Assembly (NCBI GenBank): GCA_947626435.1 | Contig: CANQSB010000017.1 | Location: 1-64,000 of the forward strand | Length of the DNA: 64,000 nucleotides | Direction: 5' to 3' | From: an uncultured Lachnospiraceae bacterium | GTDB taxonomy: Bacteria > Bacillota > Clostridia > Lachnospirales > Lachnospiraceae | Part shown: piece by piece, positions 34,261 through 62,796 of the stretch | Layout: the number at the start of each line of letters is the position of its first letter | Position numbering within the stretch: position 1 is the first letter of the stretch | The notes under the pieces: model-generated | Database searches by the model: none | What the model was told of the DNA's origin: nothing | Seen by the model: only the letters and a program-made list of their open reading frames with translations | Program-made: the position numbers and the translations under genes

Positions 34261-35142
34261 ATGTGGGATAAATATATGAAAAAATATTTTAGTTTATTCA
34301 GAGTAAAACATTATATAAAAAATTTATTGATTTTTGTACCGGCTTTTTTTGGACAAACTCTTTTTGACTTACATATATTCAAAAAATTAATAATTGCTTT
34401 TTTTTGTTTTTCCTTAGCAGCTTCGTTTGTTTATATAGTGAATGATTTGAAGGATTGTGAGCAAGATAAAAAGCATGAGATTAAAAAAAATCGTCCAATT
34501 GCCAGTGGAGAAATTTCTAAATTTTGTGCTATAATATGTGCTTTTCTATCAATCGTAATATCTGTTTCAGGTTCATTATATATTGAAAAAAGCAATGGAA
34601 GTTTTATGTTATTGTTACTATATATAATAGTCAACTGTATATATAGCTTGGGGGGAGGCAAAAAAATTGCAGTTATTGATATTTTGATGTTAGCATCTGG
34701 ATTTGTACTTAGAGTGTTATATGGTGCATCAGTTAGTGGTACGGAGTGTTCAAATTGGTTAATTTTGTTAGTAATGTCAATGTCTATATATTTGGGGACG
34801 GGGAAACGAAGGAATGAAATGATTAAAGTTAATAATGGTGTTACGAGAGATGTTTTGAAAAAATACACCATAAATTATCTTGATAATATGATGAAAATTT
34901 TTTTGACACTTACACTTGTTTTTTATGCATTATGGGGATCTGATTTTGGTAATAATGCCAGAAATACAAAATTAATCTGGACATTACCATTTATTATTAC
35001 GATAGTTATGAAATATGAATTGGATATTGAGGGGGGGGAGTCATATGGAGATCCCGTAGAAGTATTTTTGTCTGATAAGGTATTGATATGTTTGGTCCTT
35101 ATTTATGTGATTCTGATATTCGGATTATTATATGTATTATAA
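34261..35142 (+). CDS. UbiA-family transferase (DPPR synthase-like), with G8 tract
   Basis: 293 residues, eight or nine membrane helices. The UbiA metal-binding motif is present as NDLKDCEQDKKHEIKKNRP, and the second region is STYLGTGKRRNEM-like (IYLGTGKRRNEM). The end GDPVEVFLSDKVL is typical of decaprenyl-phosphate phosphoribosyltransferase relatives, which join 5-phosphoribosyl diphosphate to a polyprenyl phosphate. The likely role is to make a lipid-linked pentose donor for the GT-C proteins around it. A G8 tract (35031-35038, codon 257) lies in DIEGGES and is in frame now; a slip would cost the last 35 residues. Starts 6 bp after the previous stop. Confidence 0.82.
   Translation: MWDKYMKKYFSLFRVKHYIKNLLIFVPAFFGQTLFDLHIFKKLIIAFFCFSLAASFVYIVNDLKDCEQDKKHEIKKNRPIASGEISKFCAIICAFLSIVISVSGSLYIEKSNGSFMLLLLYIIVNCIYSLGGGKKIAVIDILMLASGFVLRVLYGASVSGTECSNWLILLVMSMSIYLGTGKRRNEMIKVNNGVTRDVLKKYTINYLDNMMKIFLTLTLVFYALWGSDFGNNARNTKLIWTLPFIITIVMKYELDIEGGESYGDPVEVFLSDKVLICLVLIYVILIFGLLYVL
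35031..35038 (+). repeat. Poly-G tract G8 in the UbiA-like gene
   Basis: Eight G in an AT-rich gene, at codon 257, encoding the GG of DIEGGES. Frame is intact (ON) in this sequence. Confidence 0.9.
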
Positions 35143-35153
35143 AGGTGTAGATT

Positions 35154-36854
35154 GTGGGACAGAGAAAAATATGTATATGGGCAGAAAGTGGACATCTGAT
35201 TTTATTGATTGTAGGAATTGATGTAATACTGACATCGATTTTGTTTTTATTTAAAATTTCAGTGTCGCCAATACATTTTGCAGCGAGTATAAGTATTGCA
35301 ATAGTTTGTTATATTAATATTTATAAAAAAAAGTACCAAAGATGTATCTTATCAATAATATATCTTACCGCTTTTATTATATTTACTGCAATATGTATAA
35401 ATTGGTTTATTCAGGAAAGTGCATGGGATGGAAATGGATATCATAAGTTCGCAACAGGTATTTTAAAATTAGGATGGAATCCCATTTATGATGATTTGAA
35501 AGATTATTTTGCCATGTTGGGGATTCCGAAAGAAAGAATAAATAAAAACGATTTGTGGGTTGCTTGTTATCCTAAAGCAGTATGGTATTTTGATTCTACT
35601 ATATATGCAATTACAGATTACATAGATGCTTCTAAGATATTTAATCTTTTAACTTTTTTTGCAACGTTTGGCATTTGTTGGGATTATTTTCAACAAAAAG
35701 TTAATTATAAACGTGCTTTAGCATTAAGTATTATTTTTACTGGAATCCCTGTTTCCTATGCTCAATTATTTACTTTTTATTTGGATGGATCTTTGGGACA
35801 GTTACTTGTAGCTAGTGTGGTGATTTTATTATCTATATCGGATGAATGTGTTGATGAAGAGTATAAAAGACGTCAATTTATTTATTTAGCAATCTGTATT
35901 ATTTTATGTAGTAATTTAAAAATTACAGGATTGGCATTTGAAACGGCATTTTGTGCTATCTTCTTTTTATATTGGTGTGTTAAACGAAAAAAAATACTCT
36001 TTAAATTGGGAATTTTCTATTTTTCAGTAATATTTTTAGCATGTGTTATTGTTGGAAGCGCGGCATATATCAAAGATATGTTTGTTTATGGGAATCCATT
36101 TTATCCTGCGATAGGTTCTAATGAATTACATTTTAGTGATTCGCTGGAATCTTTAGGACTTGAGAATGTAAGTCCTTTTTGGCAATTAATAACAATGCTG
36201 TTTGTCAGATGTAGTACTAATTATAAAAGTAATGTTGTAGAATGGAAGGTGCCTTTTACATTTAATCTGGAGGAAATCATACGATGTAAATACGATAATA
36301 TTCGGGGGGGGGGTGGAGTTTTCTTCAGTGGAATATTGTGCTGTAGCATTGTTTTGCTTGGCTATTTGCTTTTTAAAGTGTATAAAAACCGAAAACAAGA
36401 AGTTATCTCCATTGTGATTATATTAACGGTTAGTATATTGCTTATGATTTGCATGCCGGCAGGAGGACAAGCAAGATATTCTCCTTATATTTATTTTATT
36501 CCCAATTTTGCCGTATATTTATTGATGCTATATATGCAAGACTATTCAAAATACAAAAAAGTCAAATGGATCTGCAGGTTCATGGTTGGCCTTATTTTTG
36601 TAAATGCTATTATTTTTTCGCAATGGACTTGCCGCAGCATTATCTTTTCTGTTGAATATTCTATGGCATATAAGGACATGAAAAAAACAGGGAAAGTCTG
36701 GATTGACAATCCTTTTCCTGGGGCAGTCTTTAATTTTATTGATAGAAATATTGAATATGAATATAATATAGAAAATATATCTGCTGATGGAACACTATTT
36801 GAGGGTGGCTTAATATATGAAATAAAGGATAATGAAGAAAATGGGAAAAAATAG
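35154..36854 (+). CDS. Polytopic membrane protein, GT-C-like, family B, with G10 tract
   Basis: 566 residues, about ten membrane segments, GTG start with AAAGGTG six bases upstream. The first loop carries ESAWDGNGYHKFATGILKLGWNP, an acidic motif in the position expected of GT-C glycosyltransferases. Its tandem paralogue at 36832 shares this and most of the length (YPKAVWYFDS/YPKAAWYFDA; MPAGGQARYSPYIYF in both). Residues RGGGGVFF are coded by a G10 run (36304-36313, codon 384). The paralogue codes the same residues without a homopolymer. The frame is intact now. The end overlaps the paralogue by 23 bases. No named family recognised; glycosyltransferase is inferred. Confidence 0.65.
   Translation: MGQRKICIWAESGHLILLIVGIDVILTSILFLFKISVSPIHFAASISIAIVCYINIYKKKYQRCILSIIYLTAFIIFTAICINWFIQESAWDGNGYHKFATGILKLGWNPIYDDLKDYFAMLGIPKERINKNDLWVACYPKAVWYFDSTIYAITDYIDASKIFNLLTFFATFGICWDYFQQKVNYKRALALSIIFTGIPVSYAQLFTFYLDGSLGQLLVASVVILLSISDECVDEEYKRRQFIYLAICIILCSNLKITGLAFETAFCAIFFLYWCVKRKKILFKLGIFYFSVIFLACVIVGSAAYIKDMFVYGNPFYPAIGSNELHFSDSLESLGLENVSPFWQLITMLFVRCSTNYKSNVVEWKVPFTFNLEEIIRCKYDNIRGGGGVFFSGILCCSIVLLGYLLFKVYKNRKQEVISIVIILTVSILLMICMPAGGQARYSPYIYFIPNFAVYLLMLYMQDYSKYKKVKWICRFMVGLIFVNAIIFSQWTCRSIIFSVEYSMAYKDMKKTGKVWIDNPFPGAVFNFIDRNIEYEYNIENISADGTLFEGGLIYEIKDNEENGKK
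36304..36313 (+). repeat. Poly-G tract G10 in GT-C-like gene
   Basis: Longest G run in the window, coding the RGGGG of DNIRGGGGVFF at codon 384. ON in this sequence. Confidence 0.92.
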
Positions 36855-38544
36855 AAACAAATTATATAATTTTATGGATAAAACTGCAGCATGCGGGCAA
36901 TTGCTGCTGTTGATAGAAGGATTCAATGTACTATTAACTTCTATTTTATTATTGTGTCATATTCCTATTTCATCAATTCACTTTTTTTTAGGTTTTTTTA
37001 TTGCGGCAGTCTGTTATGCATTGTTATATAAGGATAAGAAAGAAAAAAACGTAATATCTATATATGCGTTGACGATTTTGATTATTGCAGCAGCAATATC
37101 TGTAAATTGGTTGATTCAAGAAATTGCTTATGATGGAAATTTATATCATAAATTTGCTGCTGGCATATTAAAAATGGGATGGAATCCTGTTTACGATAAT
37201 ATTTATGATTATATTTCCATGCTGCGGATACCAAGTGAACGATTAAGTAAGACGGATATTTGGGCGGCATGCTATCCTAAAGCGGCATGGTATTTTGACG
37301 CATCTGTATATGCGATTACAGGTTATATCGAATCCGCTAAAATATTTAACGCACTTACTTTTATTGCCTCTTTTGGTATCTGCCATTCATATTTTAGCCA
37401 AAAGTTGGAACCTAAATATGCAGCAGTAATCAGTATTGTTTTTCCCTGCATTCCGGTTTCGATTGCGCAATTGTTTACTTATTACGTTGATGGCGCATTG
37501 GGACAACTGTTGCTTTCCAGCGTTGTTGTATTGTTATCACTGTCCGACGAACATTGCAATTTAGATTTCAAAAAAAGACAGATGATTTATTTAGCCGTTT
37601 GTATCATTTTATGCAGTAATCTGAAGATTACTGGATTAGCGTTCGAGGCCGTATTTTGTGCAGCGTTTTTTGTATATTGGTGTATTAAATATAGAAGAAT
37701 TAGAATAGATGTATTCGTCTATTATATTTGTGTTGTATTTACAAGTTTTTGTATAGTTGGCGCAGGTACCTATATTAAAAATATGCAGAACTATGGCAAT
37801 CCGTTTTACCCAATGATTGGAGCAGATATATTAGACCCTAGTAATTCTTTGAAATCAGTGGGACTGGAAAATGCGAGCCCTATCAGGCAATTACTTACGA
37901 TGCTGTTTGTGAGAGTCAGCACGGATGACAGTAAAACAGCGTTAGAGTGGAAAATACCGTTTACATTTAAGCTGAAAGAATTTTCAAAATGTACGCACGA
38001 TAACATCAGAGGCGGCGGCGGGGTGTTCTTCGGAGGAATATTGATTGTAAGTGTTATTGCGTTTATATATATCATAATTAGAATGTATAATATAAGAAAA
38101 TCAGAATGTAGAGCAATATTGGTTATCATCATGGCAAGTATACTGCTTATGGTCGTGATGCCGGCAGGAGGACAAGCCAGATATTCCCCATATATATATT
38201 TTCTTCCATATTTTACATTATATCTATGGATGCTGCATCTGCAGGATATTCAAATTAGGACTGGCTTGATTAAAAACTTTTGTTGGATCATGCTTGTCAT
38301 TACGTTGATGAATTCCTTTGCATTTTCCGAATATATTTTGCGTGGAATGATACAGTCCTATGATTATGCAGCCAAATATCAAAGGATGAAAAACTCTGAT
38401 GGCGTATACATTGATACTGTGCTCCCTGGGAATGTTTTTAACTTTATTGACAGGAACATTATATATACTTATAAATTAGAAAATATGGTTCCAGAAGGTG
38501 AAATGAAATATTTAATGTTAAAATATGCAGTTAAGAACGATTAG
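36832..38544 (+). CDS. Polytopic membrane protein, GT-C-like, family B paralogue
   Basis: 570 residues, same layout as the preceding gene, with QEIAYDGNLYHKFAAGILKMGWNP in the first loop and MPAGGQARYSPYIYF near the C-terminal end. The RGGGGVFF motif is kept but coded AGA GGC GGC GGC GGG, so there is no long G run. It begins 23 bases inside the previous gene, probably by tandem duplication and translational coupling. Two similar proteins could act on different linkages of one glycan. No known function; glycosyltransferase role inferred from topology and context. Confidence 0.65.
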   Translation: MKKMGKNRNKLYNFMDKTAACGQLLLLIEGFNVLLTSILLLCHIPISSIHFFLGFFIAAVCYALLYKDKKEKNVISIYALTILIIAAAISVNWLIQEIAYDGNLYHKFAAGILKMGWNPVYDNIYDYISMLRIPSERLSKTDIWAACYPKAAWYFDASVYAITGYIESAKIFNALTFIASFGICHSYFSQKLEPKYAAVISIVFPCIPVSIAQLFTYYVDGALGQLLLSSVVVLLSLSDEHCNLDFKKRQMIYLAVCIILCSNLKITGLAFEAVFCAAFFVYWCIKYRRIRIDVFVYYICVVFTSFCIVGAGTYIKNMQNYGNPFYPMIGADILDPSNSLKSVGLENASPIRQLLTMLFVRVSTDDSKTALEWKIPFTFKLKEFSKCTHDNIRGGGGVFFGGILIVSVIAFIYIIIRMYNIRKSECRAILVIIMASILLMVVMPAGGQARYSPYIYFLPYFTLYLWMLHLQDIQIRTGLIKNFCWIMLVITLMNSFAFSEYILRGMIQSYDYAAKYQRMKNSDGVYIDTVLPGNVFNFIDRNIIYTYKLENMVPEGEMKYLMLKYAVKND

Positions 38545-38554
38545 ATATAAGAAA

Positions 38555-38935: not shown

Positions 38936-38951
38936 TAGAAAGGCTGTTGCT

Positions 38952-40010
38952 ATGAAGGAAAAAGAGAATTGGATAGAATTGCTTAGAGTTGTAAGTATGT
39001 TTATGGTTATTGGCAGACATATTGTAGGCGCTTTAAATATGCAGGAGTTATTGGGGGGGGGTGGGCAAAATTATATCATAGCTATAGCTATGTTTTTGGG
39101 AGGAGATATAGCAAATAGTATTTTTATCATTACTACAGGTTATTTGATGTATAATAAACAATTTCATATCAGGAGGATCGTTAAATTATGGTTTGAGGTT
39201 GAATTTTATTCTGTGTTCTCATATTTAGTCATTATTATAATGGGCATAGAGAAAATAACATTAAAATCCATAATATATGCAATTCTGCCGGTGGGAGCAT
39301 GTACATATTGGTTTTTTTCGACCTATTTTGTTATGAGTTTTTTCTTCCCGTTGCTTAATTATATAGCACAGAGTTTAAGTAAAAAAAAATTAAAAGGGAT
39401 ATTGATAATTGGATTGATATTTTTTTCTGTATTGCCAACGATGGGTTATGGAAAAAATTGGCTGAAACCGAATGAGAATTTTCCTGTGTTCATGTTTACG
39501 CTGCTTTATTTGTTGGGGGGATATATAAAAAAATATAATTTGCATGGAATAAAAAGGCGTGAAATTAGTGTGCTGCTTTTTATAATTATTGGTGTAGTCT
39601 GTATAGTTTCTGTACCACTTTATACTATAATGGGATTGTATCCGCTGAAATTTATATGGGGATTAGATAGAACAGCGATTGTAATCATGGGAGGATTGCT
39701 TTTCTTTCTTTTCATGAGAATAAATGTTTCAGATAAAATCATTGTTATTAGCAGAACTGTTTTTGGGGTATATTTATTTCACAATGGCCCGCTTTTAAAT
39801 CTGATTCTCCGCTGCTTGGGTTTGACATCCGAATTATATTATACCAAAGAATATATAATATATATGCTTTTAGGTAGTATTGCGATTTTTATGATTTCAG
39901 CTGTAGTAGATACAGTCAGGATATACACAATCGAAAAGGTTTTAATGCATATTACAAATAGCAGGATCAATGCTATAAACGCAAAATTGCTTTCTTGGAT
40001 AGATATATAG
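38952..40010 (+). CDS. Acyltransferase family 3 membrane protein, with G9 tract
   Basis: 352 residues, about ten helices, PF01757 acyltransferase. It has the N-terminal WIELLRVVSMFMVIGRHIVG with the conserved histidine and the VFGVYLFHNGPLL motif near the C-terminal end. Such proteins O-acetylate surface polysaccharides with an acyl donor from the cytoplasm. AAAGG is eight bases before the ATG. A G9 run (39053-39061, codon 34) codes the GGGG of QELLGGGGQNY; a slip there would leave only about 35 residues. A G6 run follows at 39515-39520. Frame is intact in this sequence. Confidence 0.87.
   Translation: MKEKENWIELLRVVSMFMVIGRHIVGALNMQELLGGGGQNYIIAIAMFLGGDIANSIFIITTGYLMYNKQFHIRRIVKLWFEVEFYSVFSYLVIIIMGIEKITLKSIIYAILPVGACTYWFFSTYFVMSFFFPLLNYIAQSLSKKKLKGILIIGLIFFSVLPTMGYGKNWLKPNENFPVFMFTLLYLLGGYIKKYNLHGIKRREISVLLFIIIGVVCIVSVPLYTIMGLYPLKFIWGLDRTAIVIMGGLLFFLFMRINVSDKIIVISRTVFGVYLFHNGPLLNLILRCLGLTSELYYTKEYIIYMLLGSIAIFMISAVVDTVRIYTIEKVLMHITNSRINAINAKLLSWIDI
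39053..39061 (+). repeat. Poly-G tract G9 in acyltransferase gene 1
   Basis: At codon 34, early enough for a slip to abolish the protein. ON in this sequence. Confidence 0.92.
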
Positions 40011-40038: not shown

Positions 40039-40047
40039 GGGGGGGGG
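40039..40047 (+). repeat. Poly-G tract G9 at the ribosome site of a glycosyltransferase
   Basis: The run ends ten bases before the ATG at 40058 and is the only purine-rich sequence that could act as ribosome site. A change in length would alter the leader, not the frame. Confidence 0.88.
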
Positions 40048-40057
40048 AAATTGATTT

Positions 40058-41188
40058 ATGAAAAAAAGAATTCTGTTTGTATCAAATTATTATGCTCCAT
40101 ACACAAGCGGAGTTACAGAAGTCGAGCGGCTAGTGGCAGAAAAACTGGCGTCTGATGGATACGAGGTGAAAGTGATAACTTCAAAGCATGACAAGGCGCT
40201 GCCAACGGTTGAGTCGATAAATGGCGTGCCGGTAGAAAGATGTCGGGTACTGTTGAAAATCAGTAAGGGCATTATAAGTCCGTCCTTTATAATAAGAACG
40301 ATCAGGCAGGCAAAATACTATGATATTGTAAATTTGCAGCTGCCAATGTTAGAATCGGGACTTTTATCGTTATTTATCAAAAAGAAGAAGCTTATGCCAA
40401 TGTATCATTGTGATATTAATCTGCCCAAAGGACTGTTAAACAGTATGATTACCAAAATAATGGACTGCTCGCATAAAATCTGTTTAAAACGCTGTTCAAA
40501 GGTGTGGGTTACATCTGCTGATTATGCAATCCATTCAAGGGTTGCCTATAAATATTCAAATAAGTTTGTAGAAGTTGGCGGACCCATTAAAAAAATTTCA
40601 GCATCGGCGCATATATCAGAGCAGAATTATAAAATAGGCTTCTGTGGCAGGATCGTTGAGGAGAAAGGGATCGATATACTTATCAAGGCGTTTGAAATTC
40701 TACAAGCCAGAAATGTAGATGCAGAACTTCTTATTGGTGGAGATTATAAGAATGTTGCAGGCGGAAGTGTTTATCCGGCACTTATAGAGTATATTAATGA
40801 ACATCAAATTAAAAATATTAAATTTCTGGGGAAAGTTCCAGAAGAAAAATTAGGTGAATTTTATTCCTCGCTAGATGTTTTCGTTCTTCCGAGTATTAAT
40901 TCGTTGGAAGCATTTGGATTGGTACAAGTGGAGGCAATGATGTGCGGTGTTCCGGTTGTTTCAACGGATTTATATGGGGTACGCACTATTGTACAGAAGA
41001 CGGGAATGGGACTTGTCAGTCAAAAAGGAAATGTGGAAAACCTTGCAGATTGTATATTTGAGGTGCTGACAAACCGGAAGAAATACATAAAGGATAAATC
41101 TATAATTGAAACTATTTTTAGTACAGAAGCTTTTGTAAAGAATATTGGCTGCTATATTAATGATGAGGAGGAAAAAAAGGTTGTTTAG
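40058..41188 (+). CDS. Glycosyltransferase family 4
   Basis: 376 residues. The N-terminal domain begins MKKRILFVSNYYAPYTSGVTEVERLVAEKL, with YDIVNLQLPMLESG and MYHCDINLP further on. The donor domain has GFCGRIVEEKGIDILIKAFE and the E-x7-E motif in NSLEAFGLVQVEAMMCGVPVV. Soluble GT-B enzyme, retaining by family. A G9 run just upstream may serve as its ribosome site. The last bases overlap the start of the methyltransferase gene downstream (TTG at 41181), so the two are likely coupled. Confidence 0.9.
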   Translation: MKKRILFVSNYYAPYTSGVTEVERLVAEKLASDGYEVKVITSKHDKALPTVESINGVPVERCRVLLKISKGIISPSFIIRTIRQAKYYDIVNLQLPMLESGLLSLFIKKKKLMPMYHCDINLPKGLLNSMITKIMDCSHKICLKRCSKVWVTSADYAIHSRVAYKYSNKFVEVGGPIKKISASAHISEQNYKIGFCGRIVEEKGIDILIKAFEILQARNVDAELLIGGDYKNVAGGSVYPALIEYINEHQIKNIKFLGKVPEEKLGEFYSSLDVFVLPSINSLEAFGLVQVEAMMCGVPVVSTDLYGVRTIVQKTGMGLVSQKGNVENLADCIFEVLTNRKKYIKDKSIIETIFSTEAFVKNIGCYINDEEEKKVV

Positions 41189-41877
41189 GAAATTTATTGA
41201 AAGAATTATATTTTTAAATAATCAAACCAGAACGAATGAGGACATATTCGGCGAAATATATAAACGTGGACTTTGGAATGAAAACCATACTGGGGGGGGG
41301 CTATTATTCCGGAAAAGGAAGCGATGATAAATACGGTATTCCATATGCCGAATGTATCTGTGATTTTTGCAAAAAACACAATATAAAAAGAATTGTAGAT
41401 TTAGGCTGCGGAGATTTCAGAGTGGGTTCAAAATTAACAGGTGCCTGTGAATACTATACAGGGGTGGACTGTGTGGAAGAATTGATACGCTGTAATCAGA
41501 AAAAATATGGTAACGATAAGATAGCTTTCCTATATAAAGATATTACCGATGATGAACTCCCTGATGGAGATTTATGTTTATGCAGACAGGTATTGCAGCA
41601 TTTGAATAATTCTCAGATTCAAATGGTGATGGAAAACATTAAAAGGAAAAATTATAAGTATGTGATCATAACGGAACATCTGCTCAATAATCCTAAAACC
41701 GAAAAGAATTTGGATAAGATATCAGGTATGCATACAAGGCTGTTTTTGGGATCTGGAGTATATCTCGATTCTTCACCATTTAATTATGAAACTCAAAAAC
41801 TTGCATGTATTCCATATGATAGAAAATCACACTTAGAAATAATGCTTGTTTTGCTAAAAAGAACGGATGATAGATAA
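41181..41877 (+). CDS. Class I methyltransferase, switched out of frame by a G9 tract
   Basis: The true gene seems to need a frame change at 41292-41300. Upstream, a TTG at 41181, nine bases after AGGAGG, opens FRKFIERIIFLNNQTRTNEDIFGEIYKRGLWNEN. This is the usual start of this family (IF.EIYK...W) before YSG.GS. With G9 that frame runs into GGGLLFRKRKR and stops at 41327, giving 48 residues. The catalytic part (YYSGKGSDDKYGIPYAE, IVDLGCGDFRVG, CRQVLQHLNN) is in the next frame and is restored with G8. The open frame from the ATG at 41236 lacks a ribosome site and starts with unrelated residues. Probably a phase-variable glycan methyltransferase in the OFF state; a sequencing error in the tract is the alternative. 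Confidence 0.8.
41292..41300 (+). repeat. Poly-G tract G9 that breaks the methyltransferase frame
   Basis: Preceded by ACT and followed by CTATTATTCC. G8 (or G11) joins the N-terminal frame to the catalytic frame; the G9 present here does not. Confidence 0.9.
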
Positions 41878-47317: not shown

Positions 47318-48073
47318 ATGATTTTAAGTGACAGAGATTTAACGTATCTAAAAGGAATGGATTTTGATGATGGATATGAGATGCAATTGGAAAACAATGC
47401 AGTTATGACCAGACTGGAATTTTTGATGAATAGGTGCAAAGGGAAAAGGATATTGCATATAGGCTGCTGCGATCACATACCTTTAATCAGAGAAAAGGTT
47501 GAACATCATATATGGCTTCAAGGTTTGTTGGAAGAAGTGGCAGATGTATGTATCGGAGTTGATATAGCAGAAGATGCAATAGACTATGTAAGAAAAGAAG
47601 GATTTAGCAATAATGTATACTATGGTGATGTTACGAATGTAGATATTATCAATAAGATTCCTGTGGTTAATTATAATTGTGTGGTAATGGGCGAAATCTT
47701 AGAACATGTTGATAATCCTGTTATATTTATAAGCCAACTAAAAAACACGCTGTTGAAACTAAATTTTCCTTCAGACGGTGAAATTATTATTGATGTTCCG
47801 AATCTGTATAAAATGCAAAGGTCAGGATTGATGCGCCCGGTGGAAATTATCAATACGGATCACAGATATTGGTTTTCACCGTATACATTGGCCAAAGTTT
47901 TAATCAGGGGGGGGGTATTTCCGAGAGAAATAGTTTTTGTCGATCAAAAATTTTCCAATTGGTATTTTGACAGAGGACTTAATAAGTGTGTTCCTAGGAT
48001 AAGAAAATTCTTGTTAAAACAGAAGAGTTATCGTGGGGATACATTGGTTTCCGTTGGGAGAATAGATTTGTGA
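47318..48073 (+). CDS. Class I SAM methyltransferase, with G9 tract
   Basis: 251 residues. SAM-binding region ILHIGCCDHIPL (the usual G.G.G is altered), IGVDIAEDAIDYV, then CVVMGEILEHVDNP and IIDVPNLYKM. DHRYWFSPYTLAKVLI is followed by a G9 run (47907-47915, codon 197) coding RGGVF. The frame is intact now; a slip would remove the last about 50 residues. AAAGGAG lies before the ATG. Likely methylates a sugar or an activated sugar in the repeat unit. Gap 48074-48238 shows no gene. Confidence 0.8.
   Translation: MILSDRDLTYLKGMDFDDGYEMQLENNAVMTRLEFLMNRCKGKRILHIGCCDHIPLIREKVEHHIWLQGLLEEVADVCIGVDIAEDAIDYVRKEGFSNNVYYGDVTNVDIINKIPVVNYNCVVMGEILEHVDNPVIFISQLKNTLLKLNFPSDGEIIIDVPNLYKMQRSGLMRPVEIINTDHRYWFSPYTLAKVLIRGGVFPREIVFVDQKFSNWYFDRGLNKCVPRIRKFLLKQKSYRGDTLVSVGRIDL
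47907..47915 (+). repeat. Poly-G tract G9 in methyltransferase gene 2
   Basis: At codon 197, coding RGGV. ON in this sequence. Confidence 0.92.
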
Positions 48074-48238: not shown

Positions 48239-49342
48239 ATGACTATGGATAATAGACAACGTAATGTGGGAATTGACTGTCTGCGTATTTTAAGTATGCT
48301 TGGTGTGGTGATTTTACATGTTAGTGGATGGGAAAACTATATAAAAATTTTTTCGAGCAATTATTATTGTATTTATGCCATTAAAACTCTGACGCTGTGT
48401 TCGGTAGATTGTTTCGCTTTAATCAGCGGTTATAACCTATATAATAAAAATGTAAAGCTACATAATCTGATTTATCTTCACATCAATGTGTTATTTTATT
48501 CTGTAGGGATAATGCTGGTGATGAAACTCTTCACAAACATTAACATGACTGCCAGTGATATTATATATAGTTTTTTACCGGTTATGTCATCCAGATATTG
48601 GTATTATTCAGCCTATTTTGGGATGTTTCTCTTAATACCGGCAATGAATATACTGATTGAAAGAAGTTCAGAGAAAGAGGATCGGTTGATTTTATTATCT
48701 ATTATAACAGTAGGAACGTTCCTGACTTTACTTAAAGACGGTAATGATGTTACGGCAATCGGATTAAGGCAAGGATATTCTACGATGTGGTTATGCTTAT
48801 GTTATTGTGCAGGTGGGATTATACATAAATATAGAATTATGAAACATATTAGTATAAAAAAACTCATATACTGGGGGGGGGTATGCCTGCTGATTACTTA
48901 TACATATCTTCTTTTTGCAGATTACTGTACAGTAAATTATGGTCTAGCAGAAAGCTTCAGGTGTGTTCTGTTTAAATATAATTCGCCGACGATTTTTGTA
49001 TATAGCCTTGTACTTTTAGAAATATTTTCGAGAATAAACATAAAAAACAGTTTTATACAGAAAATGATAAGAATATTGGCTCAGTCTTCGTTTGGGGTAT
49101 ATCTGATACATGGAAATCTGTTAGTGATGAATCATGTTATCAAAGGGCTTTGTGATTTCATAAGCGATGTTGCTGTGCCAGTGGTCGTCGGGACTGTATT
49201 TTGCGAAAGCGTTTTTATATATTGTATATGTACGCTTATTGATTTGGTACGTTTTACAATGTTTAAACTTTTACATGTACAAAATATTTGTTCGCGTGTG
49301 GAACAACGCGTGGAAAGAGTCGTGGGACTTTTACTAGGATAG
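48239..49342 (+). CDS. Acyltransferase family 3 membrane protein, with G9 tract (2)
   Basis: 367 residues, about ten helices, PF01757. N-terminal NVGIDCLRILSMLGVVILHVSGWENY has the conserved histidine, and SFGVYLIHGNLLVMN is the late motif. Probably transfers an acetyl group to the surface polysaccharide. A G9 run (48873-48881, codon 212) codes WGGV in a membrane helix and is in frame. Last gene of the + strand locus, followed by a nuclease-gene remnant. Related to but clearly different from the acyltransferase at 38952. Confidence 0.87.
   Translation: MTMDNRQRNVGIDCLRILSMLGVVILHVSGWENYIKIFSSNYYCIYAIKTLTLCSVDCFALISGYNLYNKNVKLHNLIYLHINVLFYSVGIMLVMKLFTNINMTASDIIYSFLPVMSSRYWYYSAYFGMFLLIPAMNILIERSSEKEDRLILLSIITVGTFLTLLKDGNDVTAIGLRQGYSTMWLCLCYCAGGIIHKYRIMKHISIKKLIYWGGVCLLITYTYLLFADYCTVNYGLAESFRCVLFKYNSPTIFVYSLVLLEIFSRINIKNSFIQKMIRILAQSSFGVYLIHGNLLVMNHVIKGLCDFISDVAVPVVVGTVFCESVFIYCICTLIDLVRFTMFKLLHVQNICSRVEQRVERVVGLLLG
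48873..48881 (+). repeat. Poly-G tract G9 in acyltransferase gene 2
   Basis: At codon 212, coding WGGV. ON in this sequence. Confidence 0.92.
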
Positions 49343-52827: not shown

Positions 52828-54522
52828 TTATTTCCCGCCGATGAGCACTTCCTTTCCTTTAAAAGCAAAGCCGTATTTGTGTATCCTGTCTGTTGGGATT
52901 CCTTCAGCCGTAAGGGCTGCGGCGTAATTTTTTTCCTCTATCTGTTTCAGGGCTTCATCCAGGGTGTCGTCAAGGGATTTGTCGCGGCGCTTATTGAAGA
53001 CCTTAAATTCTATTATTATGGCGTCGCCGCTTTCGTCCCTGGGTTTGAGCATCACGTCATACCTGCCGAAGCCGCTCTCGCGGTTTGATGTTATCACGTA
53101 CCTGTCCTTAAGCTCCACTGTAAGCCCTAGGACAAGGCCATGATAAAAGCGCTCCGGCTGCGTGCGTCCCGAGGCATTGCCGCCTGTGTCAAAGCTGCTG
53201 AATATTTCCTCCGATATGCTGTTCATGTATTCATTCATTGCATCTGTATCTCCGGCAATCAGCGCCCTGACGAATTCGCCATAATCGGAAGTTGTCCTGA
53301 ACCATCCCTTAATCATCTTTTCAAACATTATGCGTACTTCATGGTTTGTAAGCGCAAGTTCATATTCCTGGCTGCTTTCTACCACGCCTTCTTTGTATCC
53401 TGTGTACTTATTGACGCGCAGATAGCCTGACGCGAGCATAAGGCTCCAGAGTGTCTCCGCGCTGCCGTCAAGCTGGCTGTAGACAAGCTGCTCGTCTATG
53501 TCAGTTGTGATTGTGCCGCCGTTGAGAAGCCCCTCAAAGAGTTTCTTGACATCCGCCTTCGCCTCACGGACGAGCTTGTTTATAAGGCTGTTTGCGCTCG
53601 TGTCCGCCCAATAGCTGGTGAATTTTTTACTGTCAAGATAATTGATTATGGACCATGGATTGTAGATGTCGGTAATGCTGCCAAATGTGAAACCATCGTA
53701 CCACCACTTTACGCCTTTCTTGTCCTCCAAGCCAAACTCATCCATTGCGCTGAACACTTCCTGTTCGGTAAAACCGAACGCATCAGAGTATTCATCTGAT
53801 GTAGTAGTAATCACCTTTAAGTTGTTCAGGTCAGAAAATATCGACTCCTTGCTCACTCTGGTAATGCCAGTCATTATGCCGCGTTCAAGCCATGGATTAG
53901 TCTTAAATGTGGAGTTGAACATGCTGCGCGTGAAAGCTACAAATTCATCCCAATATCCATCTACATATGCCTCCTGCATTGGAGTGTCGTATTCATCAAG
54001 GAGGACTATGACATTCCTGCCATAATACCTGTGCAAAAAGTCGCAAAGCTGGTTGACTGCCATAGGCGCGTCAAACGCGGTCATTTCACCCATCATTTTT
54101 TCATAATATTCCTTTTCGTACTTTGACAAAAAAGGGCAGTCCATAAGAAAGCGGTTTTGTTCAAAAAGCTTTTTGAGCAGGCTGCATATGCGTTTTACCG
54201 CGTTTTGATACGAAATCTCCTTTATATTTGCAAAGCTAAGGCTTATCACGGGGTAAGTTCCCTGAAGCTGTCTGTATTTTTCGTCTTCCCAAATGCTGAG
54301 CCCTTCAAAAATCCCGCCGTTTTCGGCATACTGTACCGAGAAGAATCTCTCTACCATGCTCATAGTGATGGTCTTCCCAAAACGCCTCGGTCTGGTGATG
54401 AGCGTGACGCTGTCGCCGCTTTCCCACCATTCCTTTATGAAAGCAGTTTTATCCACATAAAAGTAGTTGTTTGATATGATTGTTTCAAAATCCTGTATGC
54501 CTATGCCTACTGTCCTTGCCAT
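52828..54522 (-). CDS. AAA-ATPase-like protein with PD-(D/E)XK domain, paralogue 2
   Basis: 564 residues with the same layout as 26448-28181: LITRPRRFGKT ending at residue 51, VLLDEYDTP near 180, ITRVSKES, and the C-terminal RYDVMLKP...IIIEFKV nuclease motif. The two proteins agree over most of their length (my reading suggests well over half identical), and the remnant at 49397 is closer to this copy. GGAGG lies about ten bases before the ATG. The genes point towards each other across the polysaccharide locus and heptose operon. Suspected mobile or defence function from family; not shown. Confidence 0.85.
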   Translation of the reverse strand: MARTVGIGIQDFETIISNNYFYVDKTAFIKEWWESGDSVTLITRPRRFGKTITMSMVERFFSVQYAENGGIFEGLSIWEDEKYRQLQGTYPVISLSFANIKEISYQNAVKRICSLLKKLFEQNRFLMDCPFLSKYEKEYYEKMMGEMTAFDAPMAVNQLCDFLHRYYGRNVIVLLDEYDTPMQEAYVDGYWDEFVAFTRSMFNSTFKTNPWLERGIMTGITRVSKESIFSDLNNLKVITTTSDEYSDAFGFTEQEVFSAMDEFGLEDKKGVKWWYDGFTFGSITDIYNPWSIINYLDSKKFTSYWADTSANSLINKLVREAKADVKKLFEGLLNGGTITTDIDEQLVYSQLDGSAETLWSLMLASGYLRVNKYTGYKEGVVESSQEYELALTNHEVRIMFEKMIKGWFRTTSDYGEFVRALIAGDTDAMNEYMNSISEEIFSSFDTGGNASGRTQPERFYHGLVLGLTVELKDRYVITSNRESGFGRYDVMLKPRDESGDAIIIEFKVFNKRRDKSLDDTLDEALKQIEEKNYAAALTAEGIPTDRIHKYGFAFKGKEVLIGGK

Positions 54523-54585: not shown

Positions 54586-55671
54586 TTAATAGTATTTCAT
54601 GACTTCTTCGCGGGTGCAGCCTGCGTATTCTTCGTTTTTAATGACCGCACTATAGACATTTTCAAAATCGGGAAGGAACACTTTCAACGATCTCACCAGT
54701 GCTGCCAACCCTTTCTTCTCGCCAATTTTCTCGCCAATTTTCTCGCCAATTTTCTCGCCAACTTTCTTGCCAGCCTTTTCGCCTTCCTCCCTTGCAATCC
54801 GCCTTACCTCCTGCACGTCGTAGCCTTTAAAGTTTGCAAAAAGTTCTCCCACCTTGCGCTCCTTTACCTGATCCGCAAACCTCCTCGCCTCATCCATGGG
54901 AACGCTGAGCTTTGCCAGCAGGATTTCTACTATCTGTCCTATTATTCCAAGCAGATATTCCGGCGTCTGCGCCGTTACTTTTTCAAGGTATTCCGAAGGC
55001 ACTTCGCTCTGCAGCGCAGCGAAGTCCTCTGAGCCATGGAGCTTATTCAGCATCATTATCAGCGAAAGCTCGTCCGCTTTCTCCATCAGCCTGCCGTTGG
55101 TGTACTCGTTTAGCTGTACCATAATGCAGCGGTAGTCAGGAATATATTCACCCAGAGTATCGCTGAGGAGTATCCTCTCATGCAGGCTTATCGGCGCAGT
55201 CCATTTGCCGATGCCCTCATAGTACACTATGGGCAATACTGGCGGATAGCGGAAATCCTTGGTCTTGCTGATACCATGACGCATACGCTCCTGCTCCTTC
55301 TCGTAGTCCTCCCAGATGAATGCCATGTAGCGGAATATCTGCATAGTTACATTATAATCCACATATGACTTATGTTCAATAAGGGAAACTATGTAAAATG
55401 GAGTTTTTTCTTCCTTTATACGGATTTTCTTCACTACGTCCGAGTCCCTTTCCTCAGTAAACATATGCACGAAGCGCTCTGTCTCATCTTCGATATCTTC
55501 AGGCTGTACATTGTGCAACAGCGGGATGTCCACATAATCCCGCAGGAACTGCGCACATAAAATCGGATCGTCAAAAATGATTTTTGCGGAACTGTCCCTG
55601 AGTTGCGTGTTGTCTTTGCTGATTGCGCCTTTTTCTCTTTCTGTCAAATTAAATGTCCTCTCTTTCCGCAT
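54586..55671 (-). CDS. Rpn-family PD-(D/E)XK nuclease, copy 3
   Basis: 361 residues, almost the same protein as at 1943-2992, with the RDSDVV and SLIEHKS nuclease motifs. The main difference is the repeat block: GEKA-GKKV-GEKI-GEKI-GEKI-GEKK (six units, 54712-54783) against three in copy 1. An internal GTG at 54852, six bases after AAAGGAG, would start an 88-residue C-terminal protein. The leader (55672-55960) is shared with copies 1 and 2. It follows the AAA-ATPase gene direction with a 63-bp gap. Confidence 0.85.
   Translation of the reverse strand: MRKERTFNLTEREKGAISKDNTQLRDSSAKIIFDDPILCAQFLRDYVDIPLLHNVQPEDIEDETERFVHMFTEERDSDVVKKIRIKEEKTPFYIVSLIEHKSYVDYNVTMQIFRYMAFIWEDYEKEQERMRHGISKTKDFRYPPVLPIVYYEGIGKWTAPISLHERILLSDTLGEYIPDYRCIMVQLNEYTNGRLMEKADELSLIMMLNKLHGSEDFAALQSEVPSEYLEKVTAQTPEYLLGIIGQIVEILLAKLSVPMDEARRFADQVKERKVGELFANFKGYDVQEVRRIAREEGEKAGKKVGEKIGEKIGEKIGEKKGLAALVRSLKVFLPDFENVYSAVIKNEEYAGCTREEVMKYY
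54712..54783 (-). repeat. 12-bp coding tandem repeat, GEKx x6
   Basis: Six 12-bp units; three and four units in the two other copies (2831-2866; 4260-4307). Confidence 0.88.
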
Positions 55672-58011: not shown

Positions 58012-58022
58012 AAAAGTCCCCC

Positions 58023-58349: not shown

Positions 58350-59059
58350 ATGCCCTCCTCGTATTCCTTGATCTTGGCTGGCGAATAGAATGAATGATAG
58401 TGCTCTTTTGGTATGTCGTAATAGCCGATTTTTTTCCCTAAAAGTATCAATTCATTTATTGAAGCGGAAATATAAAATCTGCCATCCAGACAGTTGTCTT
58501 TTTCGATAGCCTTTTTTGCAGCCTCCACAAAGTCCGAGCCTTTTCTGTAGTAATAAAATCCGGCAATGGCGTTCTGTGAAAGCGGTCGTTTCTCCGCTAC
58601 CTCTACAACTTCCTCGCCCTGTTTGAACGCGTAGCTCCAGCGAGGGTGTATGCTTGGAAAAGTAATTACTCCTGCGTCAAACTCCTGTTCTTCAAAATAT
58701 TTTAAAACATTACCATAATCAACATCTATCGTCTGGTCACAATTTGCAATAATGAGCGGCGTATCATCGTTGATATAATCAACCGCCATCAGGCAGGTGC
58801 ACAGAGCTCCCGCGGTCTGATTTTGTAATGATATTACTATGCTTGAAGGTGATAAAATTTTAGCAGAAGCGTCTATGTGAAATTCGTTGCAATTTTTTTT
58901 GTCAAAAATAAATATGTAAGTCTTCGAATCCAACCCTGCATAATTATCGATCAACATTTCAAGCATTGTTTTGCCTTTTACTTCGATCAAAGGCTTTGGG
59001 AAAAAACTGCCTTCAAAAAAGGATGAATGCCCCATTGAGGGAATAAGAATATTAATCAT
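58340..59059 (-). CDS. Nucleotidyltransferase-like protein (2), signature degenerate
   Basis: 239 residues, clear paralogue of 57292 (PKPLIEV, IANCDQTIDVDYG, HPRWSYAFK, NAIAGFYYYRKGSDFVEAA). The GxGxRF signature is replaced by IPSMGHSSFFEGSFF, so the arginine and glycines that hold the nucleotide are missing. It may have lost catalysis and be regulatory, or use a different substrate. ATG at 59059 with GGAGG five bases upstream. It overlaps the cupin gene by 10 bases and the HAD gene by 8. Confidence 0.75.
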   Translation of the reverse strand: MINILIPSMGHSSFFEGSFFPKPLIEVKGKTMLEMLIDNYAGLDSKTYIFIFDKKNCNEFHIDASAKILSPSSIVISLQNQTAGALCTCLMAVDYINDDTPLIIANCDQTIDVDYGNVLKYFEEQEFDAGVITFPSIHPRWSYAFKQGEEVVEVAEKRPLSQNAIAGFYYYRKGSDFVEAAKKAIEKDNCLDGRFYISASINELILLGKKIGYYDIPKEHYHSFYSPAKIKEYEEGICQ

Positions 59060-59684
59060 TGATGCCTCCATTAATTTTATTTATAAGGTTTTTGATTTTA
59101 TCATAATTAACATCATATGTCGTTGCAACCTCTAAAACAGTTGCGCCGCTTGCCTTTCCTGCCTCAATGCCATTTGGGTTGTCCTCTACGACTATACATT
59201 CTGCCGGCTCCAGACCAAAGCTTGAGATAGCCAGCCGATACATTTCAGGATCCGGCTTTGCATTCCTTACATCCTCATTTGAAACGATCATATCAATATA
59301 GCCAATCAGCCCGGATTTGTTCATCATCAGTTCTATTGTTGAGCGTATGGAATTAGAGCAGACCGCTATTTTATATCCCTCGTTATGCAGTCTGGAAAGG
59401 GCATATTCGTGCTGGAATACCGGATGGCACTTTTCATATATGAGCTGTATTGTATACTTCTGTTTCATTTGATTGACAAATGCATGAAGCTGTTCCGGAA
59501 GGTAATAACGCTTGCTAATCAGCTTTAGCTTAACAGCGGTGGGAAGCCCGTCAAAAGTATTCAAATGGTCATACCTGTTTATTTCTATTCCAAATAATCC
59601 AAGCGCTTTATTCAGTGCCTCATAATGCCAGTCTTTGGCATCGATCAGTACGCCGTCCATATCAAAAAGAACTGCCTTAATCAT
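59052..59684 (-). CDS. HAD-superfamily phosphatase/mutase (beta-phosphoglucomutase-like)
   Basis: 210 residues. HAD motifs: IKAVLFDMDGVLIDAK (DxD), AVCSNSIRSTI, and KPDPEMYRLA with VVEDNPNGIEAGKASG; a helical cap sits between the first two. Family members dephosphorylate small sugar phosphates or isomerise them. ATG at 59684, eleven bases after GGAGG; the earlier ATG (59693) is too close to that site. Together with the nucleotidyltransferases it suggests a dedicated pathway to an activated sugar. Confidence 0.87.
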   Translation of the reverse strand: MIKAVLFDMDGVLIDAKDWHYEALNKALGLFGIEINRYDHLNTFDGLPTAVKLKLISKRYYLPEQLHAFVNQMKQKYTIQLIYEKCHPVFQHEYALSRLHNEGYKIAVCSNSIRSTIELMMNKSGLIGYIDMIVSNEDVRNAKPDPEMYRLAISSFGLEPAECIVVEDNPNGIEAGKASGATVLEVATTYDVNYDKIKNLINKINGGIND

Positions 59685-59704
59685 ATTTACCATTTCCTCC
59701 CAAG

Positions 59705-60334
59705 TCAGCTAAAATATTCCCTTGCTTTTTCAGGATAATCCGTACACAGAAAAACCTTTGAAAAATCAATATCCCAATTCTTTAGATTATGCCAAAACAG
59801 CTCGTAGTCCTTTTTTCCATGCAGTTCGGGCGAGACAAGGCACACTTCCTTGCCATATGAAATATGCTTCTTCAAAAGTTCCTCTGTAATCCAGTCGGTG
59901 CTTTCAAACCCGTCTATCCACACTCCTGCTGATTGCCCATACATTACAGGTGTAACTTCATACTCGCTTTGGCGTGTAAAGAATCTCAGTCCCTCTTTTT
60001 CAAACTCGACCATCTGCGGGACAGACATATCAAACAGAAAATAATTATTAATGTGGTATTTCTCAACATAATGTTTGAGATGTCCTTTTAATCCGTCTGC
60101 TTTGATGTTTATGGCAAAGCAATATTTGTCCCCATATGCAGAAAGCAGTTTGAAAACTTCCTGAACATCTTGGGATGATTTGTCGGCAACGTCATGTGAG
60201 ATAACCACATGCCCCATGTAATCACGAACATCCGATTCAAAACCAAAGCCTCTTTCCAGGGCGCTTTTAAGTGCCAGTGGCGAATTACATAAAATATCTT
60301 CATTCCAAAATCCACGGTGTGCTAAAATATGCAT
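59705..60334 (-). CDS. GDPD-like phosphodiesterase domain protein
   Basis: 209 residues. MHILAHRGFW, FESDVRDYMGHVVISHDV hold the HRG, E-x-D and HD motifs of glycerophosphodiester phosphodiesterases, but the usual ENT is replaced by NSPLA and the protein is shorter than most. No signal peptide, so cytoplasmic. Within a glycan operon it could release or trim a phosphodiester or phosphorylated polyol; substrate unknown. ATG at 60334 with AAGGA nine bases upstream. Gap 60335-60453 shows no gene. Confidence 0.8.
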   Translation of the reverse strand: MHILAHRGFWNEDILCNSPLALKSALERGFGFESDVRDYMGHVVISHDVADKSSQDVQEVFKLLSAYGDKYCFAINIKADGLKGHLKHYVEKYHINNYFLFDMSVPQMVEFEKEGLRFFTRQSEYEVTPVMYGQSAGVWIDGFESTDWITEELLKKHISYGKEVCLVSPELHGKKDYELFWHNLKNWDIDFSKVFLCTDYPEKAREYFS

Positions 60335-60453
60335 ATGACTTATTCCTTCCATTGTATATTTTTAAATTATTTTCTAGCATAGGATATATGAAAGTCGTCG
60401 GTTTTTTTGAATTTGGCAACAGATTCTTTTTATCTTTAATGCCGTCTTTGATA

Positions 60454-61908
60454 TCATTTGTGAAATAATTGTGCAGTTATCTTATTAACAAGCTGCTTAA
60501 ACAGCTTGTCTTTCACTATGAACCATATTATTGCAAAATATATAACTGCACCTAAAACTGTCTGTAAAAGGGTTATGAGTATATTGTTAAACCCGTATCT
60601 GTCCATCAGCATCCCAAAGGCAATAATGCAGAATCCCATGATAACAGCAGCTGCTAAGTCCTTCAAAAGAAAGGCAAAAACATGCTTTAGCCGAATGTTT
60701 TTTCTAATAAAAAATAAATGCAGGGCAGTAACTGCTGTTTCGGCAGCTATTGTCGCAACAGCGGCTCCAACAGAAGAGCACATGGGAATCAGAATACAGT
60801 TTAAAACAAAATTAACCGCAGCTCCTACAATAACCGCCAAAGTCCCTTTATTGTGCTGTTTTGTTGGACTAAGCACTCCCATTCCTGCCATGTTGCTTAA
60901 CGGAATAATCAGTATCACAAGTGAATATATCTTCATCAATAACGCAACTTTATCGTACCCGTCTCCAAAAAACCATGGCACAAAATAATCAGAAACCGCG
61001 ATTATGCCAACGCAAAGCGGACATGATATTAGAATAATAAACTCAAATGCCTTTGTTACTGTGCTCCCAATATTCTCTATACTGCCTTTGGCATATTCAG
61101 CTGATATATGCGGATTTAACACACTTCCAAGTGATGTGATTAAAAGCATACATATACTTATAATCCTTGTCGTCTGTTCATAATACCCATTTTCAGACAT
61201 ATCTTTCGCTATTATACCAAGCATTGACTTGTCCAGAATGTTATAAATTTGAATTGCTACGACAGGTATAAAAAGTTCTAATATTCCTCTAATATTATCA
61301 AATGGTCTGATTTCGCGAATGGATATCCGCATAAGTCGACCAGGCAGGTAAAACCATAGGGAAATATTTCCTACAAGAATGACTATGACTTGTATTGCTG
61401 TGTATAGCGCCAAATCTTCCTTTGTCTTAACAAAAGCGAATATCAGAATAACTCCCAAAACCTTCGCGACCATATTTCTGAATACTGTTATGCCAAATTC
61501 TTCCAGCCCTTGAAAGAACCAGCTTATGTCAAAAAAAGAGTACAGAAGAACTATTCCCTGTATAATGGATATCTCATTATATTCATGACATAAACTCAGA
61601 TATAGCAGGTAGCAGGGCAGTACCGCCGCAGTCAAAATAAGTTTTAGGCACTGCACCTCGCCAAAAATAACGGAAATCCCGCGTCTATCATGCTGGTGGT
61701 ATGCCGTTTCCCGTATGCCGTACATGTTTGTCCCTAAAACGGCAAAAATTGAAAAATACGATACAATGGAGCTTGTATAGCTGAAAATACCCACATTTTC
61801 AGCTCCAAGTACACGTGAGATATACGGTGCTGTAATAAGCGGAACTATAACAACCAAAACTTGATATATGGTATTGTATAAATAGTTTTTTATGAATTTT
61901 GATTGCAT
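60454..61908 (-). CDS. Polysaccharide flippase, Wzx-like (2)
   Basis: 484 residues, about 14 helices, MOP superfamily. KFIKNYLYNTIYQVLVVIVPLITAPYISRVLGAENVGIFSYTSSIVSYF is the standard Wzx start. The ATG at 61908 with AGGAAAG upstream is preferred to an earlier in-frame ATG (61968) without a ribosome site. It serves the - strand block; with the flippase at 45779 the window encodes two separate exporters, so two glycans or two versions of one locus. Confidence 0.92.
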   Translation of the reverse strand: MQSKFIKNYLYNTIYQVLVVIVPLITAPYISRVLGAENVGIFSYTSSIVSYFSIFAVLGTNMYGIRETAYHQHDRRGISVIFGEVQCLKLILTAAVLPCYLLYLSLCHEYNEISIIQGIVLLYSFFDISWFFQGLEEFGITVFRNMVAKVLGVILIFAFVKTKEDLALYTAIQVIVILVGNISLWFYLPGRLMRISIREIRPFDNIRGILELFIPVVAIQIYNILDKSMLGIIAKDMSENGYYEQTTRIISICMLLITSLGSVLNPHISAEYAKGSIENIGSTVTKAFEFIILISCPLCVGIIAVSDYFVPWFFGDGYDKVALLMKIYSLVILIIPLSNMAGMGVLSPTKQHNKGTLAVIVGAAVNFVLNCILIPMCSSVGAAVATIAAETAVTALHLFFIRKNIRLKHVFAFLLKDLAAAVIMGFCIIAFGMLMDRYGFNNILITLLQTVLGAVIYFAIIWFIVKDKLFKQLVNKITAQLFHK

Positions 61909-62073
61909 AATTGTTTCTTTCCTGTATATAACATAAATGCTTTTACCTTTCAGAAAATTAATTTCCAAACCGCTTTGAGTCTCTTTTTAAGTATTTGACC
62001 TACATGTGTATGTTTAATACCATTTTCTATTCCACGCAATATGAATGTCATAATTAAAACAGCCTCCCATCCA

Positions 62074-62796
62074 TTAAAAAAACCAGTCATGTTCTCCCGT
62101 AAATGAATAAGTTAATTCACGCGGTCTGTTGCCTATAAATTTGGCAGGTACCCCCCCCCAGTATGTGAATTGAGGAACACATTTTGTCAGTACGGCACCT
62201 GCAGTCACAACGGCACCTGTTTCTATAATGCTCCCAGGCAAAATAATTGTATTACTGCTCACCCACGCCCTGTCATAAATATAAACTGGTTCACTTACAT
62301 AAGAAAACTCAGGTGAATTTACTGAATGTTGCGCTGTCCAAATGCGCACTTCACTAGACAAATTGACATTTTCGCCAATGTATAATCCACCGCGCCCATC
62401 TAATATGCAATCATCACCTATTATTGTATTAGCGCCTATATGTATTTTATAAGGTGCTCGAAAAATGCATCCTTTGTAGATTACTACATTATCTGCAATA
62501 TCAATATTAAAAACATATTTGTAAAAAAACATTCTTAACCAATGGCAGGGCATTTTTGATATTTTATCCATATAGTACTTAATCATACCGTTAATTACAT
62601 GACCGACAGTATCCTTATATTGTTTTTTGTATAACGGTCTGTATTTTTCAAAATTGTTAGTAATATTACAATTAGATTTTTCTGCCTTTTTTTTGATGCT
62701 GCAAAAAGCATATATAAGAATTAATCCCAAAATCCACAGAATAATTTTGATTATCTCCCAAATAATCACAATATATATAATTAAGAAAATATACAT
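62074..62796 (-). CDS. Left-handed beta-helix acetyltransferase, with G9 tract
   Basis: 240 residues. An N-terminal membrane segment (IIYIVIIWEIIKIILWILGLILIYAF) precedes a hexapeptide-repeat domain (IHIGANTIIGDDCILDGRGGLYIGENVNLSS), with the catalytic-type histidine in WTAQHSVNSP and the end YWGGVPAKFIGNRP. Probably O-acetylates a glycan. The - strand G9 run (62151-62159, codon 213) codes WGGV; in frame now, and a slip would lose the last about 25 residues. AAGGAGG lies three bases before the ATG. Confidence 0.85.
   Translation of the reverse strand: MYIFLIIYIVIIWEIIKIILWILGLILIYAFCSIKKKAEKSNCNITNNFEKYRPLYKKQYKDTVGHVINGMIKYYMDKISKMPCHWLRMFFYKYVFNIDIADNVVIYKGCIFRAPYKIHIGANTIIGDDCILDGRGGLYIGENVNLSSEVRIWTAQHSVNSPEFSYVSEPVYIYDRAWVSSNTIILPGSIIETGAVVTAGAVLTKCVPQFTYWGGVPAKFIGNRPRELTYSFTGEHDWFF
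62151..62159 (-). repeat. Poly-G tract G9 (C9 on +) in LbH acetyltransferase
   Basis: At codon 213, in the YWGGVPAK motif. ON in this sequence. The only G tract in the - strand block. Confidence 0.92.

Follow-up and report, generated by a model that had tools for sequence, protein, structure and literature searches.

Poly-G contingency loci are very probably the best explanation for the tracts of nine or more G residues found in and before genes of an uncultured Lachnospiraceae bacterium, a reading in which switching is deduced from assembled sequence. The tracts were noticed in a stretch of 64,000 nucleotides (the window), which is part of contig 17 of the host genome G000 (C, G and L stand for contig, genome and locus labels throughout). 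A preliminary description of this DNA had already proposed a contingency-locus system in a Clostridium-like genome. The proposal is upheld by an excess of long runs, by their placement with respect to reading frame and promoter spacing, by the existence of out-of-frame genes and by tract lengths of mainly G9–G10; it needs amending in that one of the eight tracts it listed (a G8 run at 35031) drops out and in that the tracts are found genome-wide. The Clostridium-like character of the host is supported by Spo0A, present in the host, in 11 of 11 congeners and in 18 of the 20 genomes searched.

A run scan of the window recovered eight G/C runs of seven or more and none besides, confirming the coordinates and strands given earlier for all eight (Table 1) as well as the absence of comparable runs from 1–35 kb and from the heptose operon. 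The tracts fall in a UbiA-type gene, a membrane-protein-like gene, two acyltransferases, two methyltransferases, an LbH-type protein and the leader of a glycosyltransferase. All intragenic window tracts of at least G9 (6/6) are in frame, and a one-base change in any of them leaves 3–33 codons after the tract instead of 24–315. The tract in the glycosyltransferase leader (40039–40047) may act at the start of translation. The G8 run at 35031 probably lies outside the system, because it lacks the flanks shared by other tracts and the G8 class does not rise above simulation. When 16.8 kb of the window was used as a query, short matches were obtained in 3 of 29 other genomes of the genus.

Table 1. 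Tracts and tract-associated genes of the window, and promoter tracts elsewhere in the host genome
Feature	Position	Strand	Remarks
UbiA-type gene	34261-35142	+	holds G8 run near 3' end
G8 run	35031-35038	+	lacks flank element; G8 class not in excess
Membrane-protein-like gene, 566 aa, no Pfam family	35154-36854	+	carries G10; first of two adjacent paralogues
G10 tract	36304-36313	+	in frame, 179 codons after; one-G change leaves 10 or 33 codons
Acyltransferase-3 gene, PF01757, 1.1e-21	38952-40010	+	carries G9
G9 tract	39053-39061	+	near 5' end of acyltransferase gene; in frame, 315 codons after
G9 tract	40039-40047	+	leader, 10 nt upstream of glycosyltransferase ATG
Glycosyltransferase, PF00534, 3.2e-35	40058-41188	+	downstream of leader tract
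Methyltransferase gene	41236-41877	+	G9 near gene start
G9 tract	41292-41300	+	in frame, 191 codons after
Methyltransferase gene, PF13489, 2.6e-6	47318-48073	+	carries G9
G9 tract	47907-47915	+	in frame, 51 codons after
Acyltransferase-3 gene, PF01757	48239-49342	+	G9 with full flank element TAC-T-G9-TAT
G9 tract	48873-48881	+	in frame, 152 codons after
Hexapeptide-repeat (LbH-type) protein gene, PF00132, 1.2e-7	62074-62796	-	carries G9 (C9 on + strand)
G9 tract	62151-62159	-	flank TAC-T-G9-TA; in frame, 24 codons after; encodes WGGV of TYWGGVPAK
Promoter tract	C7:39060		spacer 16; before 739-aa protein with signal-like N-terminus
Promoter tract	C29:34075		spacer 20; before BspA-type protein, if gene starts after tract
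Promoter tract	C45:4347		spacer 19

In the host genome as a whole (3,703,543 bases in 98 contigs), 13 runs of exactly seven, 3 of eight and 30 of at least nine were counted, with 33 distinct runs of eight or more and 16 runs of G9. When Markov models were trained on the window minus its tracts and used to simulate 3.7 Mb, they produced 54 (second order) and 44 (fourth order) runs of seven, 13 and 4 of eight, and 1 and 0 of nine or more; a first-order formula, with the tracts still included in its training, predicted 6.5 runs of nine or more. Since the classes of seven and eight dip against the simulations, the runs of at least nine are a separate class peaking at 9–10, not the tail of a distribution. 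Synonymous shuffling was applied 200 times to 200 predicted genes from host stretches selected for their tracts, giving on average 0.65 sense-strand runs of at least G9 and never more than 3, versus 24 observed. Such a selection of stretches inflates the excess, and a fairer figure, scaled genome-wide from the 173 run-free genes, is about 6 expected runs; the excess over the synonymous model is therefore roughly fourfold, and the model does not reproduce the dip at 7–8. A strong sense-strand bias is also apparent, as the same 200 genes hold a single run of nine or more with C on the sense strand.

The runs are unevenly distributed. Contig 17 contains 9 of the 33 runs of eight or more within 31.3 kb (P about 7e-12 if uniform) and 8 of the 30 runs of nine or more within 30.1 kb, six runs of eight or more lie between 153 and 196 kb of contig 1, and the remaining 18 are spread over 16 further contigs (14 for runs of nine or more). 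The excess over simulation holds for runs of at least nine and not for the G8 class; confinement to glycan loci is true of the window and not of the genome, where runs of nine or more occupy 16 contigs in total. Contig 17 itself terminates inside a G15 run (66348–66362; L043) that precedes part of a methyltransferase gene; either variation in tract length may have interrupted the assembly here, or the count of fifteen may be a read artefact.

Reading-frame states were assigned to 123 tracts from nine genomes of the genus, namely 30 from the host and 93 from eight congeners (all listed tracts of G007, G009, G010, G003 and G012, 31 of 50 in G017, 11 of 12 in G002, and 5 in one stretch of G069). 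The gene was in frame (ON) at 69 tracts, in frame with the tract near its 5′ end at 4 and strictly out of frame (OFF) at 20; a further 2 were ambiguous, 4 affected the C-terminus only, 18 were classed as other, 5 had no gene and 1 lay at a contig edge. The tract at C29:34075 is counted as ON here, although it is read below as a promoter tract whose gene starts after it. A looser first classification (66 ON, 32 OFF) was discarded, as it called the intact window gene 41236–41877 OFF.

Several OFF genes carry recognizable domains on both sides of the break. Three host genes, all outside the window, are out of frame with both parts open. One has a DUF6020 profile matched at positions 182–277 before the break and 324–587 after it (parts searched separately), another has the N-terminal domain of a GT4 glycosyltransferase before the break and the C-terminal domain after it, and the third has a C2185-like N-terminal domain followed by a methyltransferase. 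Among congeners, one OFF gene encodes an AAA-ATPase and then PDDEXK_9, domains arranged as in the unbroken window gene 52828–54522, and another (G012, L237:1817-4136) encodes the Competence domain of ComEC and then Lactamase_B, broken at a G9 tract without the flank element; the latter is possibly a switchable DNA-uptake channel, or else a decayed gene. Family continuity across the break was found in four OFF genes (two host, two congener). Both ON and OFF states are present, the OFF gene being otherwise intact in such cases. G9 (67) and G10 (41) make up 108 of the 123 tract lengths, which range from 9 to 15, and this peak is what a slippage equilibrium would give. Among tracts callable as ON or OFF, those of at least G11 are out of frame in 6 of 11 cases, compared with 16 of 84 shorter ones (p = 0.017).

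A second placement of the tracts is within promoters. Three host tracts sit between a −35 box TTGACA and a −10 box TATAAT, with spacers of 16, 19 and 20. A scan of a named genome collection for TTGACA-N(3–12)-G9-TATAAT returned at least 119 stretches, against a chance expectation of about 1 (uniform-base estimate), and 80 were analysed as loci (L051–L130); the matches listed come from many metagenome-assembled genomes of Clostridia and Bacilli and from some other phyla. Among these listed matches, the spacer is 17 bp in 1 of 83 poly-G promoters, 15–16 bp in 22 and 18–21 bp in 60, figures that are not independent, as the promoters come partly from the same record set. Control promoters on the same loci, having the same boxes without poly-G, have a 17-bp spacer in 7 of 17 cases (p = 9e-6 against the poly-G set); with all loci counted, including incompletely removed copies, it occurs in 5 of 133 listed poly-G promoters. 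The gap at 17 bp is read as a majority of cells being in a sub-optimal promoter state; alternatively, poly-G could shift the spacer optimum. A hydrophobic N-terminus is encoded by 53 of 76 callable first genes among the matches listed, versus 71 of 372 for the remaining genes of these loci (the two groups being called by somewhat different rules), and LRR_5 is found in 7 of those 76. Paralogous promoters of one isolate differ by a single G (G9 in L062, G10 in L077; both G9 and G10 in L089). Taken with the coding tracts, these cases place the tracts where a change of one unit alters either frame or promoter spacing.

The genes concerned would mostly make surface structures, as judged from family labels. 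Eighteen of the 30 host tracts lie in or just before genes of families that commonly act on glycans (7 of 8 on contig 17, 11 of 22 elsewhere), a raw share based on labels assigned by judgement. The set comprises glycosyltransferases, acyltransferase-3, MBOAT, methyltransferases, epimerase, formyltransferase, sulfatase, PMT and hexapeptide proteins, and the roles rest on family names. Five further tracts are in DUF6492, DUF6044, DUF6020, YfhO or ATP-grasp proteins, two precede leucine-rich repeat proteins of BspA type (C29 by Pfam, C7:39060 by eye), and five have no family, of which C45 was outside the family scan. The best reading is that intragenic tracts mostly fall in genes for enzymes of glycan type and that promoter tracts precede those for secreted proteins. 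Two observations on individual families may be added. The open frame of an ATP-grasp gene (L042, on C15 of the host) begins with a tandem peptide repeat of about 21 residues, which is perhaps non-coding there. Methyltransferases judged FkbM-like by eye (L218:7396 and L231:8664), from different species and only 35% identical, share the alignment position of their G9 tract, which precedes an EPD motif.

In the proposed mechanism, a G tract would gain or lose a base by strand slippage at replication. Within a gene, such a slip would cause a frameshift and truncate a surface-glycan-type enzyme (e.g., an acyltransferase, methyltransferase or glycosyltransferase), while in a promoter it would alter the spacing of the −35 and −10 boxes and with it how strongly the gene of a secreted protein is transcribed. 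With a large number of tracts slipping independently, a population would then contain mixed surface states, the changes being presumably reversible and altering the glycan produced.

A number of observations weigh against contingency loci, and the glycan share just given is a raw count that covers the tracts alone. Most intragenic host tracts are in frame, with 3 of 26 OFF (one of the 26, at a contig end, could not be assigned), and runs of nine or more are absent from 3 of 17 congeners. In the OFF rows L183 and L211 the two parts match unrelated families and may be neighbouring genes, and in L204, L185 and L218:12167 one part of each is without a family; because of such rows, the count of 20 strict OFF genes is an upper figure. 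The orthologous tracts compared are equal in length: G010 and G012 share a pair that is G10 in both (98.8% identical) and another that is G9 in both (71%), and congener G069 (L218:8405) has a tract at the same place as the window gene 41236–41877, with 77% DNA identity, which is G9 like the window tract at 41292. Finally, the absence of functional mismatch repair that goes with tract switching in Campylobacter is not seen, since the host is predicted to encode full-length, adjacent MutS1 (C74:98-2710) and MutL (C74:2843-4711); less slippage than in Campylobacter is therefore predicted. Over the cut-off, MutS1 was found in 15 of 18 and MutL in 9 of 12 genomes searched.

Many tracts of the genus share flanking bases, summarized as TRC-N-G9-TA. 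TRC stands exactly 10 bases before the tract end at 45 of 122 genus tracts (background, 2.6%) and TA follows the tract at 89 of 122; the two co-occur, with TA at 43 of the 45 tracts that have TRC versus 46 of the 77 that do not (p = 6e-6). Their spacing is identical across all three reading frames, and the interval between upstream and downstream TA steps is 11 bases in 38 of 71 cases, versus 20.5 expected were offset unrelated to length. A search for TRCNG9TA gave 78 matches, spread over 18 of 38 genomes of the genus, host included, and its reversed-pattern control has none, while TACNG9TAT occurs in the host and in 0 of 195 other genomes of the order (a draw without further genus members). 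An outgroup set of 121 tracts from nine other genomes, 30 of them from Helicobacter and covering part of each genome's tracts, has TRC at 10 in 2 of 121 and 3′ TA in 60 of 121, seven of the nine genomes having been reached through the TATAAT pattern, which favours TA. The 3′ TA was accordingly rejected as a feature of the genus, and it was rejected as an amino-acid effect because it occurs in all frames. A hairpin between TAC and GTA arms is not supported by folding (43 motif windows, mean −0.34 kcal/mol, arm pair in 15), and the next base outward of the arms does not covary. An origin as a mobile cassette was rejected for the cases aligned (tract-bearing proteins against homologues, 52 alignment rows, some of them self-copies), where varied substitutions, small indels and natural Gly motifs were found and no constant insert.

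One interpretation, which we offer as a long shot, is that the unit is a cis element TA-C-N-G9-TA with TA steps 11 bases apart in any reading frame. In this genus its flanks, or a factor reading them, would determine how often the tract slips and at what length it settles, a programmed and site-marked hypermutation compatible with intact MutSL; other lineages would then carry other 5′ flanks. The element is not required for a tract, as it is found at only 7 of 29 scorable host tracts. The same regularities (the excess of TRC at a fixed distance, its co-occurrence with TA, the constant spacing in three frames, the 11-base interval and the matches in 18 genomes with an empty control) are also what would be expected of a fixed-length DNA recognition element kept for protein binding rather than slippage. 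We regard this as improbable, because the full pattern is missing from most host tracts and from 20 of the 38 genus genomes, tract lengths vary from 9 to 15, out-of-frame genes exist, and sites within coding regions in every frame would be odd for an operator.

Recoding at the RNA level, in which polymerase or ribosome slips on poly-G to give several products per gene and tract length is no genetic switch, would preserve the open second part of out-of-frame genes just as well, if it were constant. It cannot explain the promoter-spacer tracts, however, and most tracts are in frame; it is regarded as unlikely, slightly more so than protein binding. It is very unlikely that Gly-rich protein motifs and codon usage produced the tracts incidentally, even though several tracts coincide with natural Gly motifs (RGGGGV in 35154–36854 and GGVIVVHDY in L216, for example) and synonymous codon choice alone accounts for about six runs genome-wide. 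The 24 runs in 200 genes exceed what codon choice yields, the G8 (3) and G7 (13) classes fall below the G9 peak (16), promoter tracts encode nothing, and Gly-Gly-Gly in run-bearing genes lies outside the run in 1 of 28 cases. The window provides a natural control for codon choice at RGGGGV in a pair of adjacent paralogues (35154–36854 and 36832–38544; 54.5% identity over 552 aa): DNIRGGGGVFF is present in each, written with the G10 run in the first and with mixed codons and no tract in the second. An artefact of sequencing or assembly (poly-G in two-colour chemistry) is scarcely credible, for although the G15 of contig 17 is at a contig end and fragmented congeners have several runs no more than about 120 bases from where a contig starts (5 of 15 in G005, 3 of 8 in G006), the remaining 29 tracts of the host lie inside contigs, most with open in-register frames on both sides and many with shared flanks.

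Surface-glycan genes are among the poly-G loci of Campylobacter jejuni, the natural comparison for contingency loci of this kind. According to a review, C. jejuni has G/C tracts both within and between genes, is without functional mismatch repair, and keeps its tracts mainly at G9–G10 through an insertion bias at G8 and a deletion bias at G11 and above (PMC8355987). The host is similar in having tracts of both kinds, mainly of G9–G10, and differs in that its lineage has Spo0A and full-length MutS/MutL. The flank element is specific to the genus among the genomes compared here. In Neisseria, promoter strength of fetA and porA depends on the length of a homopolymer that separates −35 from −10 (PMC5320596). 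The host's promoter tracts are alike in lying in the spacer, whereas here poly-G abuts TATAAT and the spacers, among the matches listed, avoid 17 bp. In Bifidobacterium breve, G-tract slippage is described as switching a pilus (PMC9187656), again a surface structure of a Gram-positive commensal under a G-tract switch; two pilus clusters are concerned there, while the host has 30 tracts, mostly in glycan-type genes. A survey of homopolymeric tracts in coding genes of prokaryotes, of Orsi type and with Clostridia included, reported that tracts longer than 7 are generally not over-represented, poly(G) of 7–8 being so in 9 genomes only (PMC2831843). The host differs in having an excess of runs of at least nine. 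No description of poly-G phase variation in Lachnospiraceae or other Clostridia was found in a search of open-licence literature by title and abstract start. Within the limits of that search, the lineage in which the tracts occur, their flanking element and the avoidance of one promoter spacing are new; the core mechanism is counted as known, because switching by Neisseria spacer tracts and of Bifidobacterium pili by G tracts has been described.

Phase variation in Gram-positive commensals of gut type is mostly discussed as DNA inversion. If the tracts switch, many Clostridia and Bacilli would vary their surfaces in a second way that is easily missed, and consensus genomes would display variable genes as pseudogenes or as fixed genes. 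This would bear on how phages and host immunity encounter surface glycans, and the same pattern scan can be applied to any genome.

Elsewhere in the window, the AAA-ATPase/PDDEXK_9 protein (52828–54522) and a Transposase_31 (YhgA-like) protein (54586–55671) adjoin heptose-type genes.

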